Under the pieces are notes generated by a model. That model had not been told where the DNA came from, did not search any database, and saw only the letters and a list, made by a program, of their open reading frames with translations. From Bifidobacterium mizhiense (GTDB lineage: Bacteria > Actinomycetota > Actinomycetes > Actinomycetales > Bifidobacteriaceae): a DNA stretch of 64,000 nt. The position numbers were made by a program, and so were the translations under genes. This document shows, piece after piece, positions 56,508-63,841 of the stretch. Position 1 is the first letter of the stretch, and every line of letters starts with the position of its first letter. The stretch lies in assembly GCF_020884755.1 (NCBI RefSeq), contig NZ_BPWE01000001.1:496001-560000 (forward strand), read 5' to 3'.

Positions 56508-56553
56508 GGTTCACCTCTATAGTCGTTGCACGACCGACGTATGTCGGCCACAG

Positions 56554-56627
56554 TAGCGAGGAAGAGACTCGAACTCTTGACCTTACGATTATGAGTCGTA
56601 CGCTCTAGCCAGCTGAGCTACCCCGCC
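56554..56627 (-). tRNA. tRNA-Met (CAT)
   Basis: Class I tRNA on the minus strand: acceptor GGCGGGG with CCTCGCT (two G-T pairs), D arm TAGCTCAGCTGGCTAGAGC, anticodon loop CTCATAA giving CAT, T arm with GTTCGAGTC. The first acceptor pair is G-T rather than the open pair of initiator tRNA, and the anticodon stem lacks three G-C pairs, so it is an elongator tRNA. Confidence 0.92.
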
Positions 56628-56631
56628 AGAG

Positions 56632-56703
56632 AGCCTCGGGTGAGAATCGGACTCACGACCTCTTCCTTACCAAGGAAGTGCTCTGCCACTGAGCTACCGA
56701 GGC
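56632..56703 (-). tRNA. tRNA-Thr (GGT)
   Basis: Acceptor GCCTCGG with CCGAGGC, anticodon loop TTGGTAA giving GGT, T arm GAGTCCGATTCTC. It lies five bases before tRNA-Met on the minus strand. Confidence 0.93.
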
Positions 56704-56704
56704 G

Positions 56705-56786
56705 TGGCGGATAGAGGATTCGAACCTCTGAAGCATTACGCGGCTGATTTACAGTCAGCTCCCTTTGACCGCTTGGGAAATCCGCC
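56705..56786 (-). tRNA. tRNA-Tyr (GTA)
   Basis: Acceptor GGCGGAT with ATCCGCC, long variable arm, anticodon loop CTGTAAA giving GTA, T arm with GTTCGAATC. It is first in the Tyr-Thr-Met-rpmG unit. Confidence 0.93.
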
Positions 56787-56902: not shown

Positions 56903-57958
<1,056 letters not shown>

Positions 57959-58068: not shown

Positions 58069-60264
58069 TTAGAGCATGCAGCTGACGCAGCCCTCGACCT
58101 CGGTGCCCTCCAGCGCCTGCTGGCGGATCCTGATGTAGTAGAGGGTCTTGATCCCCTTGCGCCAGGCGTAGATTTGAGCCTTGTTCAGGTCGCGGGTGGT
58201 GGCCGTGTCAGGGAAGAAGAGGGTCAGCGAGAGCCCCTGATCCACATGCTGGGTGGCCTCGGCGTAGGTGTCCACGATCTTCTTCCAGCCAATCTCGTAG
58301 GCATCCTCGAAGTAGTCCAGGTTCTCGTTGGTCATGTAGGGAGCCGGGTAGTAGACGCGCCCGATCTTGCCCTCCTTGCGGATCTCGATCTTGGAGGCAA
58401 TCGGGTGTATGGAGCTGGTGGAGTGGTTGATGTAGGAGATGGACCCGGTCGGAGGAACGGCCTGGAGGTTCTGGTTGTAGATGCCGTCCTTGAGGATGGC
58501 CGCCTGGAGTTCCTTCCAGTCCTCAACCGTGGGGATGTGGACCTGGTACTGGTCGAAGAGGTCCTTGATCCGCTGGGTCCTGGGCTCCAGGGAACGGCTG
58601 CCCTCGGTGTACTTGTCGAAGTAGTTCCCCTGGCCTGCCGGCTTGGCGTAGTCGGACTTGGCGAATGAGGCGAAGGCCTTCCCCCGCTCCACGGCCAGGG
58701 CATGGGAGGCCCTGTAGGCGTGGTAGGCCACGGTCATGAAGTACATGTCCGTGAAGTCCAGCCCCTCCTCGGATCCGTAGTGGATGCCCTCGCGTGCGAG
58801 GAAGCCATGGAGGTTCATCTGACCCAGGCCGATGGCATGGCCCTCATCGTTGCCCCGCTTGATGGAGGGAACAGCCTCGATGTTGGTGTGGTCGGAGACG
58901 GAGGTCAGTGCCCGCACCGAGGTTTCGACCGTGTCGGCCAGGCCGCCGTCCATGGCCTTGGCGATGTTCAGGGACCCCAGGTTGCATGAGATGTCGCGGC
59001 CGATATGCTCATAGTTCAGGTTCTCGGAGTAGGTGCTGGGCTCCTGGACCTGCAGGATCTCCGAGCAGAGGTTGGACATGGTGATCCGGCCGTCGATGGG
59101 GTTGGCCTTGTTGACCGTGTCCTCGAAGAGGATGTAGGGGTAACCGGACTCGAACTGGATCTCGGCCAGGGTCATGAAGAAGTCGCGGGCGTCGATGTAC
59201 TTCTTGTGGATCCGCTTGTCCTTGACCATCTCCTCGTAGTGCTCGGTGATGGAGATGTCAGCAAAGGGCTTGCCGTAGACCCGCTCCACGTCGTAGGGCG
59301 AGAAGAGAGCCATGGGCTCCTTGCGCTTGGCCAGCTCGAAGGTGATATCGGGGATGACCACGCCCAGGGCCAGGGACTTGATGCGAATCTTCTCATCCGC
59401 GTTCTCCCGCTTGGTATCCAGGAAGCGCATGATGTCGGGGTGGTGGGCTGACAGGTAGACGGCGCCGGCACCCTGGCGGGCACCCAGCTGGTTGGCATAG
59501 GAGAAGGAATCCTCCAGGAGCTTCATGACCGGGACCACGCCGCTGGACTGGTTCTCGATGTGCTTGATGGGTGCACCCATCTCGCGCAGGTTGCTGAGCA
59601 GCAGGGCCACGCCGCCGCCCCTCTTGGACAGCTGCAGGGCGGCGTTGACGCCGCGGGAGATGGACTCCATGTTGTCCTCGATGCGCACCAGGAAGCATGA
59701 GACCGGCTCACCGCGCTGGGCCTTGCCCAGGTTCAGGAAGGTGGGGGTGGCGGGCTGGAAGCGGCCGGAGATGATCTCATCCGTGTACTTCATGGCGGCC
59801 TGCTCGTCCCCGTCGGCCAGCTCCAGGGCCACGGCCACGCAGCGCTGGGGGAAGTCCTCCAGGTAGCGCTTGCCGTCGAAGGTCTTCAGCGCATAGGAGG
59901 TATAGAACTTGAAGGCACCCAGGAAGGTCTCGAATTCGAAACCGCTCTCGGCTGCATGCTGATAGATCTTGTCCAGGAACTCCGGTGTGTAACGATCAAA
60001 AACCTTCCGGTCGTAGTACTCGTGATCCAGGAGGTAGGCAATCCTCTCAGCCGTGGAGGGGAAGGTCATGGTGTTGGGCCGCACGTGCCGGTCCATGTAC
60101 TGGCGCTCGGCTTCATGGTCCTTGTCAAACTGAATCCTGCCGTCCTTGTCGTACAGGTTCAGCATGGCGTTCAGGGCATGGTAGTCGTGAGCCGGATCGA
60201 AGGTCTCCTCATCCTCGGATGCGGTCCTATCCAGGGCCAGGGACGTGTCCTCGTTTGCTCCCAT
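58069..60264 (-). CDS. nrdE: Ribonucleotide reductase class Ib large subunit NrdE
   Basis: The catalytic alpha subunit, 731 residues, which reduces ribonucleoside diphosphates. It has the active-site cysteines in [15 protein letters not shown] and [11 protein letters not shown], the radical-site NLCSEILQ, conserved [17 protein letters not shown], and the C-terminal redox pair EGCVSCML. The N-terminus lacks the long ATP-cone of class Ia. The frame starts at an ATG at 60279, but AAAGGA lies just inside it, six bases before the ATG giving MGANEDTSL, which I take as the start. It is the only large subunit in the window and follows nrdI by about 50 bases. Confidence 0.96.
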
Positions 60265-60315
60265 CGGGTGTCCTTTCATGAGTATTGCTGTGATAGTGCG
60301 TGTAATGAAATTGGC

Positions 60316-60813
60316 TCAGGACTCGGGGTGGTTGCGGAAGAAATCCACAACCCCGCGGCGGACCTTCTCCTGGTCCTCCTTGGTGCCCATGAGCTCGAAA
60401 TAGTAGAGGAAGGGCACATTGCACTTGCGGGAAATGATGTCCCCCGCCATGCAGAAGGCCTCCCCGAAGTTGGTGTTGCCCGAGGCGATGACCCCGCGGA
60501 TGCCGGCCCGGTTGGCCGGGTCGTTCAGAAAGCGCTTGATTTGCGGCATGACCGCCTTCTTGGCTGATCCGCCCCCATAGGTGGGAACGATCAGGATGTA
60601 GGGCTGCCGGATGTTGAGCGGCGGATCCTTGGGTCTCAGAGGGATACGGAAGACGTCAATCCCCTCGTCATCCAAATGGCAGTTGGCAATGAACCGGGCG
60701 GTGTTGCGCGAGGCCGACGAGAAGTAGACCACAGCCCCCAGGCGCTGACCCTGGGCGGCGAACTCGGGAGCGCTGAGCTCCGAATCAGTTCCGGCGGTCT
60801 GCTGTTGCTCCAT
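60316..60813 (-). CDS. nrdI: Flavodoxin-like NrdI (first copy)
   Basis: NrdI is an FMN protein that supplies superoxide or peroxide to build the NrdF cofactor. The 165-residue product has [28 protein letters not shown] and GVIASGNTNFGEAFCMAGDIISRKCNVPFLYYFELMGT, the FMN-binding loops of NrdI. About 25 non-conserved residues lead it. It is first in the nrdI-nrdE-nrdF unit, preceded by degenerate NrdR-like boxes. No nrdH glutaredoxin-like gene is in the window. Confidence 0.95.
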   Translation of the reverse strand: MEQQQTAGTDSELSAPEFAAQGQRLGAVVYFSSASRNTARFIANCHLDDEGIDVFRIPLRPKDPPLNIRQPYILIVPTYGGGSAKKAVMPQIKRFLNDPANRAGIRGVIASGNTNFGEAFCMAGDIISRKCNVPFLYYFELMGTKEDQEKVRRGVVDFFRNHPES

Positions 60814-60904: not shown

Positions 60905-60954
60905 AACTACTATATGTGCTGTTGATATCGGAAACGGTGAGCATATCTAGGGTT
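60905..60954 (-). promoter_or_regulatory. Degenerate paired NrdR-like boxes upstream of nrdI-nrdE-nrdF
   Basis: Two AT-rich elements, ACTACTATATGTGCT near 60906-60920 and GAGCATATCTAGGG near 60939-60952, have centres about 33 bases apart. The spacing and the ACACTATATATTGTGT-like text resemble NrdR boxes, but the match is weaker than at the second unit. Confidence 0.5.
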
Positions 60955-60988: not shown

Positions 60989-62053
60989 TCAGAAGTCCCA
61001 GTCGTCGTCGTCCGTGGACTCGGAGTGCCCCATGACGTAGGAGGAGCCCGAACCCGAGAAGAAATCGTGGTTCTCGTTGGCCGATGGCGACAGGGCCGCC
61101 AGGATCTCCGAACTGACATCAGTCTGGTCGGCTGCGAACCGGGCCGGGTAGCCCAGGTTCATCAGTGCCTTGTTGGCATTGTAGCGAACGAAGGCGAAGA
61201 CATCATCGACGAAGGGGAAGCCGTCATATATCTGCCCGGAGTAGACCATCTCCAGGTCGTAGAGCTTGTCCAGCAAATCGTTGGTGAACTTCTCCAGCAT
61301 GGCCTGGTCGGCCTGGGTCCTCTCCTCCAGACCCCGCTGATACTTGTAGCCCGAGTAATAGCCATGGATGGCCTTGTCGCGCAGGATCAGCCGAATCATG
61401 TCGGCCGTGTTCATCAGCTTGGCATGGCTGGAGAAGTAAAGAGGCAGGTAGAAGCCCGCGTAAAGCATGAGGGAGGAGAGCATGGTGGAGGCCACCTTGC
61501 GCTTCAGGGGATCCTCACTGACGTACTCGTGCAGGACCGTGTGGACGCGCTCCTGGAGGACGTCGTTGGCCACAGCCCAGCGGTAGGCCTTGTCGATCTC
61601 CTCACTGGAGCAGAGGGTGGAGAAGACCGAGGAGTAGGAGCGGGCGTGGACCGACTGCATGAAGGCGATATTGGTATAGATGGCCTGCTCCTGCTCGGTG
61701 CGGGCGTGATCGATCTGCACCAGCTCGCCGATGGTGGCCTGGGTGGTGTCCAGCATGGTCAGTCCGGTGAAGACGCGGACGGTGGTCTGACGCTCATGAT
61801 CGGTCAGGGTATTCCAGGATGGGATGTCATTGGACAGCGGCACCTTTTCGGGCAGCCAGAAGTTGGAGACCAGGCGGTTCCAGACCTCCAGATCCTTCTC
61901 GTCGGTGATGTTGTTCCAGTTGACCGGACGGATCCTGGCCTCAGGGGTGACACGGTACTGGGGCGGGGTGATGGACTTGCGCATCATCTCGTCGTCGGCA
62001 TAGACACCGGCCTCTGACTTGGTGCTCTCTTTGGTGCTTTCCTGCTGGCTCAT
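60989..62053 (-). CDS. nrdF2: Ribonucleotide reductase small subunit with QSK substitutions (class Ie-like)
   Basis: A 354-residue NrdF in which three metal-binding glutamates are replaced. Aligned with the canonical copy in this window: Asp102 kept (GLTMLDTTQ), Gln133 for Glu ([10 protein letters not shown]), Ser193 for Glu ([10 protein letters not shown]), Lys227 for Glu (RDKAIHGYY); His136, His230 and Tyr140 are kept. This is the QSK pattern of class Ie small subunits, which hold no metal and use a DOPA radical made from the tyrosine with NrdI. The C-terminal [13 protein letters not shown]...DDDDWDF matches the canonical copy, so it can dock to the same NrdE. The 23-residue N-terminal extension is unusual. 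Its ATG overlaps the second nrdI stop (ATGA). Confidence 0.93.
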
Positions 62054-62538
62054 GACAAAACCGCCTTTCGTGAATCAGTCGACTGCTGCTGGAGCTGCAC
62101 TCCCATTCCGGCCAGAATGGCTCTGACCGCCTGAACATCCTCCGAGGTGCCCAGCAGCTCGAAGCGATAGAGCTCAGGGACACCGCACCGGCGGGCTATC
62201 AGCGGGCCGGCCGCACAATAGGCGCTGCCAAAATTCCGGTTACCCGAGGTGACGACCCCGCGAATCAGTCCGCGGTTGACCGGATTGTTCAGGAAGTGGA
62301 TGACCTGCTTGGGCACGGCCCCCTTGGCTGACCCACCACCATAGGTGGGCACCAGCAGAAGGTAGGGCGCATCCATAACGGGCATGGGCTGGCGCCGCTC
62401 GTACAAGGGGATGCGGATGGGCTCCTCCACGCCCAGCCGCTGCACAAAGCGGTGGGTGTTGTTGGAGACGCTGGAGAAATACACCAGCCTGGAGGCACCA
62501 TCGGGAGGATCGTGCCGATCCATATCTGCTGAAGACAT
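62050..62538 (-). CDS. nrdI2: Flavodoxin-like NrdI (second copy)
   Basis: A second NrdI, 162 residues from the ATG at 62538 ([14 protein letters not shown]), with AAGGAG upstream; the frame stays open earlier but that would cross the NrdR boxes. Conserved pieces are [30 protein letters not shown] and [28 protein letters not shown]. The overlap with nrdF2 indicates coupled translation and a dedicated pair: NrdI is needed to convert the tyrosine of class Ie subunits to DOPA. Confidence 0.94.
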
Positions 62539-62560: not shown

Positions 62561-62606
62561 ACACTATATATTGGATTGACTTGGCCAGCCAACCACAATA
62601 TATAGG
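62561..62606 (-). promoter_or_regulatory. Paired NrdR boxes upstream of nrdI2-nrdF2
   Basis: ACACTATATATTGG (62561-62574) and CCACAATATATAGG (62593-62606) are near-palindromic copies of the NrdR box consensus, with centres about three helical turns apart, directly upstream of nrdI2. NrdR represses RNR genes when dATP is high. Confidence 0.75.
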
Positions 62607-62716
62607 TTTATCCAAGACGACACAAGTTCACAGAAGCAAAACCACCTCCGCTGTGAGATTCCATACAAGGACAGAGACGGCAAGCATTTGCCTTTACACT
62701 CGCACCATGGCGGCCG

Positions 62717-63841
62717 TCAGTCAGAGATTGGCCCCTGTGGCAGACCCTGTCGCCGCAGGTCGGCGCAAACCTCCAGGACACGGTCGTTGGCCTCCCGCTC
62801 CCCCACAGTGATGCGGATGCCCTCACCAGGGAAGGTTCTGACCGACAGGCCTGCATCACGGAAACGCTGATCAGCCTGCGTGGCGGCCTGGCCCAGAGGC
62901 AGCCAGTAGTAGTTGGCTCGAGGTTGGGGGATATTCCACCCCTGCTCCTGCAAACCAGCCAGGATTCTAGCCCGCTCCTGCTTGAGTGCCTGGACCCGTT
63001 CGGCCAGGCGGTCCTGTGCGTCCAGGCTGGCCATTGCCGCCGTCTGGGCCACATCGGAGACGCCGAAGGGCAGGGCCACCTTGTTCATGCCGGCAATGAT
63101 CGGCTCGGCAGCCACGGCGTATCCGATCCGCAGCCCCGCCAGTCCGTAGGCCTTGGAGAAGGTCCGGGCCACTATCACATTGGGATGCTCGCGCATGAGC
63201 GACAATCCGTCGGCGCGGTCAGGGTCGTCGTTGAACTGTATATAGGCCTCGTCAAAGAGCACCGGCAGGTCGGCGGGCAGAGCCTGCAGCAGACGTTCGG
63301 CCTGGTCGCGGTCGACGTTGGTCGCAGTCGGATTGTTGGGATTGTTGACGATGACCAGTCTGGTGTGGTCGTTGACCGCGGCGATCATGGCATCGATGTC
63401 ATGCCGCCCCTCTTTATCCAAGGGCACGGGCACACCTGTGGCTCCAGCCGAGGTGACGATGATGGGATAGGCTTCGAAACTGCGCCAGGGATAGACCACC
63501 TGGTCGCCATGGCCGGCCACCAGGTCAACCAGCTGGGTAATGACCTCAGTGGACCCGCATCCCAGCTGGATGCATGCGGGATCCACCCCGTGCAGCTGGG
63601 CCAGCCGCTCTACCAGAGAGGTGCCACGCATATCCGGATAACGGTTCAGATGGCCCAAGGCCTGTTCGGAGACGGTCTGGACCACGCCGGGCAGGGGCGG
63701 ATAGGGGTTCTCGTTGCTGGAGATCTTGTAGCTGGTCAACCCGGGAACGGCTGGTGCCGGACTGCCCTGCCGGTATCCGGGAAGGGAATCAATGCTGGCG
63801 CGATGACGATAGTACATGGGCACCATGCTAGTGGCCGCCAT
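62717..63841 (-). CDS. Histidinol-phosphate / aromatic aminotransferase (HisC/Pat)
   Basis: A 374-residue fold-type I PLP aminotransferase of the HisC branch. Motifs are KISSNENPYPPLP, GCGSTEVITQLVDLVAGHGDQVVYPWRSFEAYPI, NNPNNPTATNV, LFDEAYIQF and the PLP lysine in ARTFSKAYGLAGLRIGYAVA. No other his genes are near, and Actinobacteria often have a second HisC-like enzyme (Pat) for phenylalanine or tyrosine, so I leave the symbol open. AGGAG precedes the ATG. It is separated from nrdI2 by the NrdR boxes. Confidence 0.88.
   Translation of the reverse strand: MAATSMVPMYYRHRASIDSLPGYRQGSPAPAVPGLTSYKISSNENPYPPLPGVVQTVSEQALGHLNRYPDMRGTSLVERLAQLHGVDPACIQLGCGSTEVITQLVDLVAGHGDQVVYPWRSFEAYPIIVTSAGATGVPVPLDKEGRHDIDAMIAAVNDHTRLVIVNNPNNPTATNVDRDQAERLLQALPADLPVLFDEAYIQFNDDPDRADGLSLMREHPNVIVARTFSKAYGLAGLRIGYAVAAEPIIAGMNKVALPFGVSDVAQTAAMASLDAQDRLAERVQALKQERARILAGLQEQGWNIPQPRANYYWLPLGQAATQADQRFRDAGLSVRTFPGEGIRITVGEREANDRVLEVCADLRRQGLPQGPISD

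Follow-up and report, generated by a model that had tools for sequence, protein, structure and literature searches.

The nrd locus of a 2.09 Mb Bifidobacterium genome (G000) poses the question why a bacterium that encodes an ordinary metal-dependent radical subunit of ribonucleotide reductase also encodes, close beside it, a second one in which three of the four carboxylate metal ligands are replaced. We analysed a stretch of 64,000 nucleotides around this locus (the window, 64 kb). The unusual gene, nrdF-QSK (60989..62053, minus strand), starts with ATG, ends with ...DDDDWDF-stop and encodes a class Ie small subunit (R2e) of 354 amino acids. Proteins that are 98-99% identical occur in the bee-gut species B. 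choladohabitans, B. mellis and B. apousia, the closest named relatives. Ligand glutamates are replaced by Gln133 (codon CAG, 61655..61657), Ser193 (TCC, 61475..61477) and Lys227 (AAG, 61373..61375), while Asp102, both histidines (H136 and H230) and the radical tyrosine Tyr140 (61634..61636) are retained, all read on the minus strand. A preliminary description of this DNA had reported the same codons and residues and had placed the three substitutions at the metal site. The alignment with a solved structure confirms this: residues 16-354 match residues 26-364 of PDB entry 8rag over 339 residues without a gap (phmmer against the PDB). With an offset of +10, Q133, S193, K227, D102, H136, Y140 and H230 fall on Q143, S203, K237, D112, H146, Y150 and H240 of 8RAG, whose roles have been named (PMC11846895). 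Tyr140 is the counterpart of Y150, which is hydroxylated to DOPA in the homologue.

This homologue, the R2e-QSK of Gardnerella (Bifidobacterium) vaginalis (PDB 8RAG/8RAH), is metal-free, DOPA-modified and active with NrdI. Its tyrosine is converted to DOPA only in the presence of NrdI, and together with NrdE it reduces CDP only in the DOPA form and with reduced NrdI; the radical itself was not seen spectroscopically (PMC11846895). The window protein shares with it 78-79% sequence identity, all residues at the ligand positions, the tyrosine for DOPA, the long N-terminus, the R1 tail and an NrdI partner. Since the homologue is metal-free, forms DOPA with NrdI and supports CDP reduction, the same chemistry is the best reading for nrdF-QSK, and we infer a metal-free state and a DOPA radical by analogy. 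The retained aspartate and histidines might instead let the site take up some metal in vivo, either one ion or an unusual metal, so that the protein would work as a metal enzyme. We consider this very improbable, as the G. vaginalis protein contains only trace Mn/Fe, its crystal structures are without metal and the Lys237 ammonium group fills the Mn1 place in 8RAG (PMC11846895).

Does the wider NrdF family support a metal-free class assignment? In a comparison set of 108 NrdF sequences (52 QSK, 56 with metal ligands), the three ligand columns read Q,S,K in 52/52 proteins of the QSK clade and E,E,E in 56/56 of the others. Mixed types do not occur in this set, so the combination found in the window protein is not due to chance. 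In the tree of these sequences, a single branch with a support of 100 separates all QSK proteins, and those of the Bifidobacteriaceae form one clade, again with a support of 100. The QSK/EEE state changes only once; with the direction of change taken from published work, the window protein belongs to a clade derived from class Ib (PMC11846895). Beyond the three ligand columns, 21 more positions split the two classes, each in at least 90% of the members, and at all 24 the window protein sides with the QSK class. An AlphaFold2 model (pLDDT 84.7) predicts an R2 (ferritin-like) fold near that of the solved R2e-QSK. Its top PDB matches in Foldseek are 8rag and 8rah (78% identity, TM 0.72 and 0.78), with a high overall rmsd of 12.8 Å at TM 0.72-0.79, possibly reflecting a shifted N-terminal extension. 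Thus sequence, clade, class-diagnostic residues and predicted fold agree on class Ie of the QSK type, as had been proposed.

The window protein therefore represents a known type and not a new kind of enzyme, and the preliminary description overrated its newness, as a bifidobacterial R2e-QSK was already characterised in 2025 (PMC11846895). That description had also attributed both VPK and QSK changes to Mycoplasma and Aerococcus. The known Mesoplasma, Aerococcus and Streptococcus proteins are of the VPK type, and QSK is confined to Actinomycetota (PMC11846895). The host genome belongs to this phylum, and the QSK loci that we found come from actinobacterial records. R2e-VPK proteins (Mesoplasma florum 6GP2/8BT3, Aerococcus urinae 6EBO) are likewise metal-free R2s with a lysine at the same position and share about 50% identity with nrdF-QSK (Foldseek alignment). 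However, they have Val/Pro where the window protein has Gln/Ser, come from Bacillota and are encoded in the gene order nrdFIE. Class Ib R2b proteins (M. tuberculosis NrdF2, C. ammoniagenes R2F and nrdF_b of the window) have the fold, the NrdI and NrdE partners and the R1-binding tail in common with nrdF-QSK, but form the sister clade of the QSK proteins and keep all four Mn/Fe carboxylate ligands. In spite of this difference nrdF-QSK scores above the cut-off of the NCBIfam class Ib models, so that automatic annotation will call it class 1b. Indeed, NCBIfam places all five nrd genes of the locus in class Ib or in class I at large, so that routine annotation would miss a class Ie NrdF.

On the minus strand, the locus reads, from 5' to 3', a hisC-like gene (62717-63841), nrdI_q, nrdF-QSK, nrdI_b, nrdE, nrdF_b and three tRNA genes. 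The gene nrdI_q (62050..62538; NCBIfam nrdI, 148.7 bits) encodes the NrdI flavoprotein paired with nrdF-QSK and overlaps the start of the latter by 4 bases. Its ATG at 62538 is preceded by an AAGGAG ribosome site, whereas the start of the longest open reading frame, a TTG at 62598, would extend the coding sequence across the promoter and NrdR boxes described below and is therefore unlikely. The operon that follows consists of the native nrdI_b (60316..60813), nrdE for the R1 catalytic subunit (58069..60279) and nrdF_b (56903..57898), an ordinary class Ib (Mn/Fe) R2 with the site residues D,E,H,Y,E,E,H. The immediate downstream neighbours of nrdF_b, likewise on the minus strand, are consecutive tRNA genes for Met, Thr and Tyr (56553-56786). 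The genome further holds nrdD (anaerobic class III), nrdR and a distant nrdH about 104 kb away. In Gardnerella, QSK is the sole class I R2 and lies within nrdHIEF; in the window, by contrast, it has its own nrdI and adjoins a complete nrdI-nrdE-nrdF(EEE) operon. This arrangement, nrdI-nrdF(QSK) followed by nrdI-nrdE-nrdF(EEE) with a single nrdE, is what is new here.

As this nrdE is the only one in the genome, the metal-free and the metal-dependent R2 are probably served by, and compete for, one R1. The C-terminal R1-binding tail of nrdF-QSK, with its Tyr339, is intact and nearly identical to that of nrdF_b. In line with this, where a QSK gene lacks an nrdE of its own, competition of two R2s for one NrdE has been suggested as a general feature (PMC11846895). 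The retained E,E,E NrdF also bears on the suggestion that the locus allows DNA precursor synthesis independent of manganese and iron: the cell, which keeps a normal metal-dependent R2, is not wholly metal-independent.

Taken together, we are confident that nrdF-QSK is a class Ie R2 that acts metal-free through an NrdI-dependent DOPA radical, alongside Mn/Fe R2b on one NrdE. The R2e protein would bind neither Mn nor Fe. Reduced NrdI, most likely the one encoded just upstream by nrdI_q, would deliver an O2-derived oxidant into the site, where Tyr140 would be hydroxylated to DOPA, and re-oxidation of NrdI would yield the DOPA radical. We further infer that this radical would pass over the usual R2-R1 pathway, including Tyr339 of the tail, to the single NrdE and drive ribonucleotide reduction. 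Mn/Fe R2b would be made from the adjacent nrdI-nrdE-nrdF operon, with NrdE common to both R2s, and NrdR would limit both transcription units in response to the dNTP/ATP state. The cell would probably benefit by being able to make dNTPs in the presence of O2 during a shortage of Mn/Fe or after damage to the metal R2. For the bee-gut group to which the window belongs, a predicted respiratory metabolism has been described (PMC3447821).

NrdR control is suggested by a pair of predicted boxes upstream of nrdI_q (62561..62576, ACACTATATATTGGAT; 62593..62608, CCACAATATATAGGTT; both unstranded). Their 16-bp spacer falls inside the range of 14-17 bp over which NrdR binds box pairs (PMC12051234). The boxes score 18.5 and 18.0 of 20, and the pair (62561-62608) far exceeds all others in the 64 kb window with 36.2 of 40, compared with 26.5 for the best pair in 10 Markov-1 windows; these scores depend on box weights that we set ourselves after the generally known NrdR consensus. 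A putative sigma-70-like promoter, TTGGCT-18-TATAGT (62563..62592, minus strand), identified by consensus match only, overlaps the boxes. Upstream of nrdI_b, a degenerate predicted pair with a 15-bp spacer (60907..60953, unstranded; score 28.2) ranks third in the window, and its place is conserved in L004, L005, L092 and L132. Box pairs recur in relatives, also upstream of orphan nrdF-QSK genes.

The tree groups nrdI_q with NrdI proteins that other actinobacteria encode in their QSK systems (support 91/88), which suggests that it may have entered from outside the family together with nrdF-QSK; an AU test does not reject grouping with the native bifidobacterial NrdI (p 0.18 for the careful tree, 0.53 for the quick tree). 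Across the Bifidobacteriaceae, R2 replacement appears in graded stages. The arrangement of the window, nrdI-F(QSK)-nrdI-E-F(EEE), is shared by most of its species group. G014 (L121:4900-5982) and G015 (L122:5044-6126) have F(QSK)-nrdI-E-F(EEE) without nrdI_q, and offer a natural experiment on whether both R2s are served by the native NrdI. In G015, a frame change near residue 44, either real or a sequencing error, splits nrdE. In G018, an intact nrdI-E-F(EEE) operon lies downstream of nrdF-QSK fragments (L126:5506-5936; residues 28-74 and 257-354, frame broken), a remnant that marks a recent loss of the metal-free R2. An orphan nrdF-QSK lies far from nrdI-E-F(EEE) in G016, G023 and G024 and about 12-15 kb from it in G041. 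This suggests that the native NrdI and NrdE can serve R2e-QSK, since the sole nrdE and its nrdI lie elsewhere. Finally, the nrdF of the native nrdI-E-F operon is itself QSK in Gardnerella, B. thermophilum and B. boum, and the accompanying NrdE and NrdI are of the family's native type. The native bifidobacterial NrdI must therefore be capable of serving R2e-QSK, as the Gardnerella work shows. As a separate observation, nrdE and nrdF(EEE) lie about 15 kb apart in G005 and G006 (L118, L119), unlike in their relatives.

The fragments in G018, the missing partner nrdI_q in G014 and G015 and the complete absence of nrdF-QSK from 8/27 genomes of the genus could also mean that the gene was acquired, is now being lost and matters little to bee-gut Bifidobacterium. 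We regard this as unlikely: the frame is intact in 18/27 genomes, near-consensus NrdR boxes are retained and purifying selection is strong, with a dN/dS of 0.035-0.091 in comparisons of the window gene with four relatives from its group (0-0.04 for nrdF_b and 0.10-0.16 for nrdI_q in the same comparison). What the eight absences and the one remnant do indicate is that nrdF-QSK is dispensable where R2b exists. A link between QSK and lost manganese uptake was rejected, as the Nramp Mn transporter is present in 27/27 genomes. Together with Sod, which is equally universal, it occurs whether QSK is present or not, and the genomes thus give no sign of lowered Mn use. Neither Sod nor cytochrome bd shows a clear pattern with QSK among the 27 genomes; the only genomes that lack cytochrome bd, G016, G023 and G024, all carry QSK.

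In the species group of the window, QSK always occurs together with a normal R2b. Such company might point to a catalytically silent R2 paralogue that aids or regulates R2b or NrdE, perhaps as part of a mixed dimer; yeast Rnr4 is a described example. Silent R2s may exist in the family. A genus search revealed a divergent NrdF of 501 aa in G007 (L131:3766-5268, minus strand), and NrdF-X, the conserved R2-like family to which it belongs, also occurs in G064, G121-G124, G126, G127 and G129-G133 (loci L137-L147, L148-L155, L165 and L166), but not in the genome of the window. Its ligand sites read E (for D), E, H, Y, E or Q, I (for E) and S (for H), so that two or three metal ligands are lost, and its tail keeps the NrdE-binding DDDWDF but has no tyrosine. 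Most copies contain a long low-complexity insert. In contrast, nrdF-QSK has Tyr339 in the tail, Asp226, Tyr140 and all class Ie residues. Moreover, Gardnerella, B. thermophilum and B. boum encode QSK as the nrdF of the nrdI-E-F operon, and activity has been shown for the Gardnerella protein (PMC11846895). Among the R2s of the NrdF-X clade itself, only the orphan QSK protein retains an intact radical path. A silent role for nrdF-QSK is thus quite improbable, and we retain the reading as an active metal-free R2.

Apart from G007, each NrdF-X genome has one nrdE and one orphan nrdF of the QSK kind, with QSK read directly in G064, G127, G129, G131, G132 and G133; no NrdF of the E,E,E type turned up in these genomes. 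G128 has QSK and nrdI-E without NrdF-X. The tree joins NrdF-X with native bifidobacterial R2b (support 99/94), and an AU test does not exclude a place on the QSK side (p 0.21). In G129, G131, G133 and G064, NrdF-X directly follows nrdI-nrdE, which is the ancestral nrdF position and favours descent from native R2b; the other copies lie 1-13 kb downstream of nrdE. With a dN/dS of 0.17-0.29, NrdF-X is under purifying selection, but under weaker constraint than working R2s. We read NrdF-X as a putative former R2b freed by the metal-free subunit, which would now be either a non-catalytic NrdE-binding protein or a slow relic. Perhaps it acts together with the metal-free enzyme or regulates it. A broader scenario, which we put forward only tentatively, is that R2e displaces R2b stepwise in Bifidobacteriaceae, with the window at the stage of NrdE sharing and R2b of a sister lineage turned into a selected, non-catalytic, NrdE-binding NrdF-X.

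The QSK class forms an evolutionary bridge from Mn/Fe to metal-free ribonucleotide reductases, and the specific value of the material described here lies in the pairing of two R2s with one NrdE and in the series of replacement stages. The locus provides a genetically separable pair, a metal R2 and a metal-free R2 on one NrdE, each with its own NrdI gene. It could directly test when the cell uses metal-free radical chemistry and whether the NrdI proteins are interchangeable, and the stages seen across the family would reveal the steps by which an essential metalloenzyme is replaced.

In G007, a C-terminal nrdE fragment (L131:6410-7009; residues 542-736, 85% identical) lies near NrdF-X, with a short-chain dehydrogenase gene in between. 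NrdF-X of G132 adjoins the same dehydrogenase, so that the G007 stretch looks like a transfer from a G132-like relative. The stretch is present at both contig ends, which is probably assembly redundancy of a circular chromosome.
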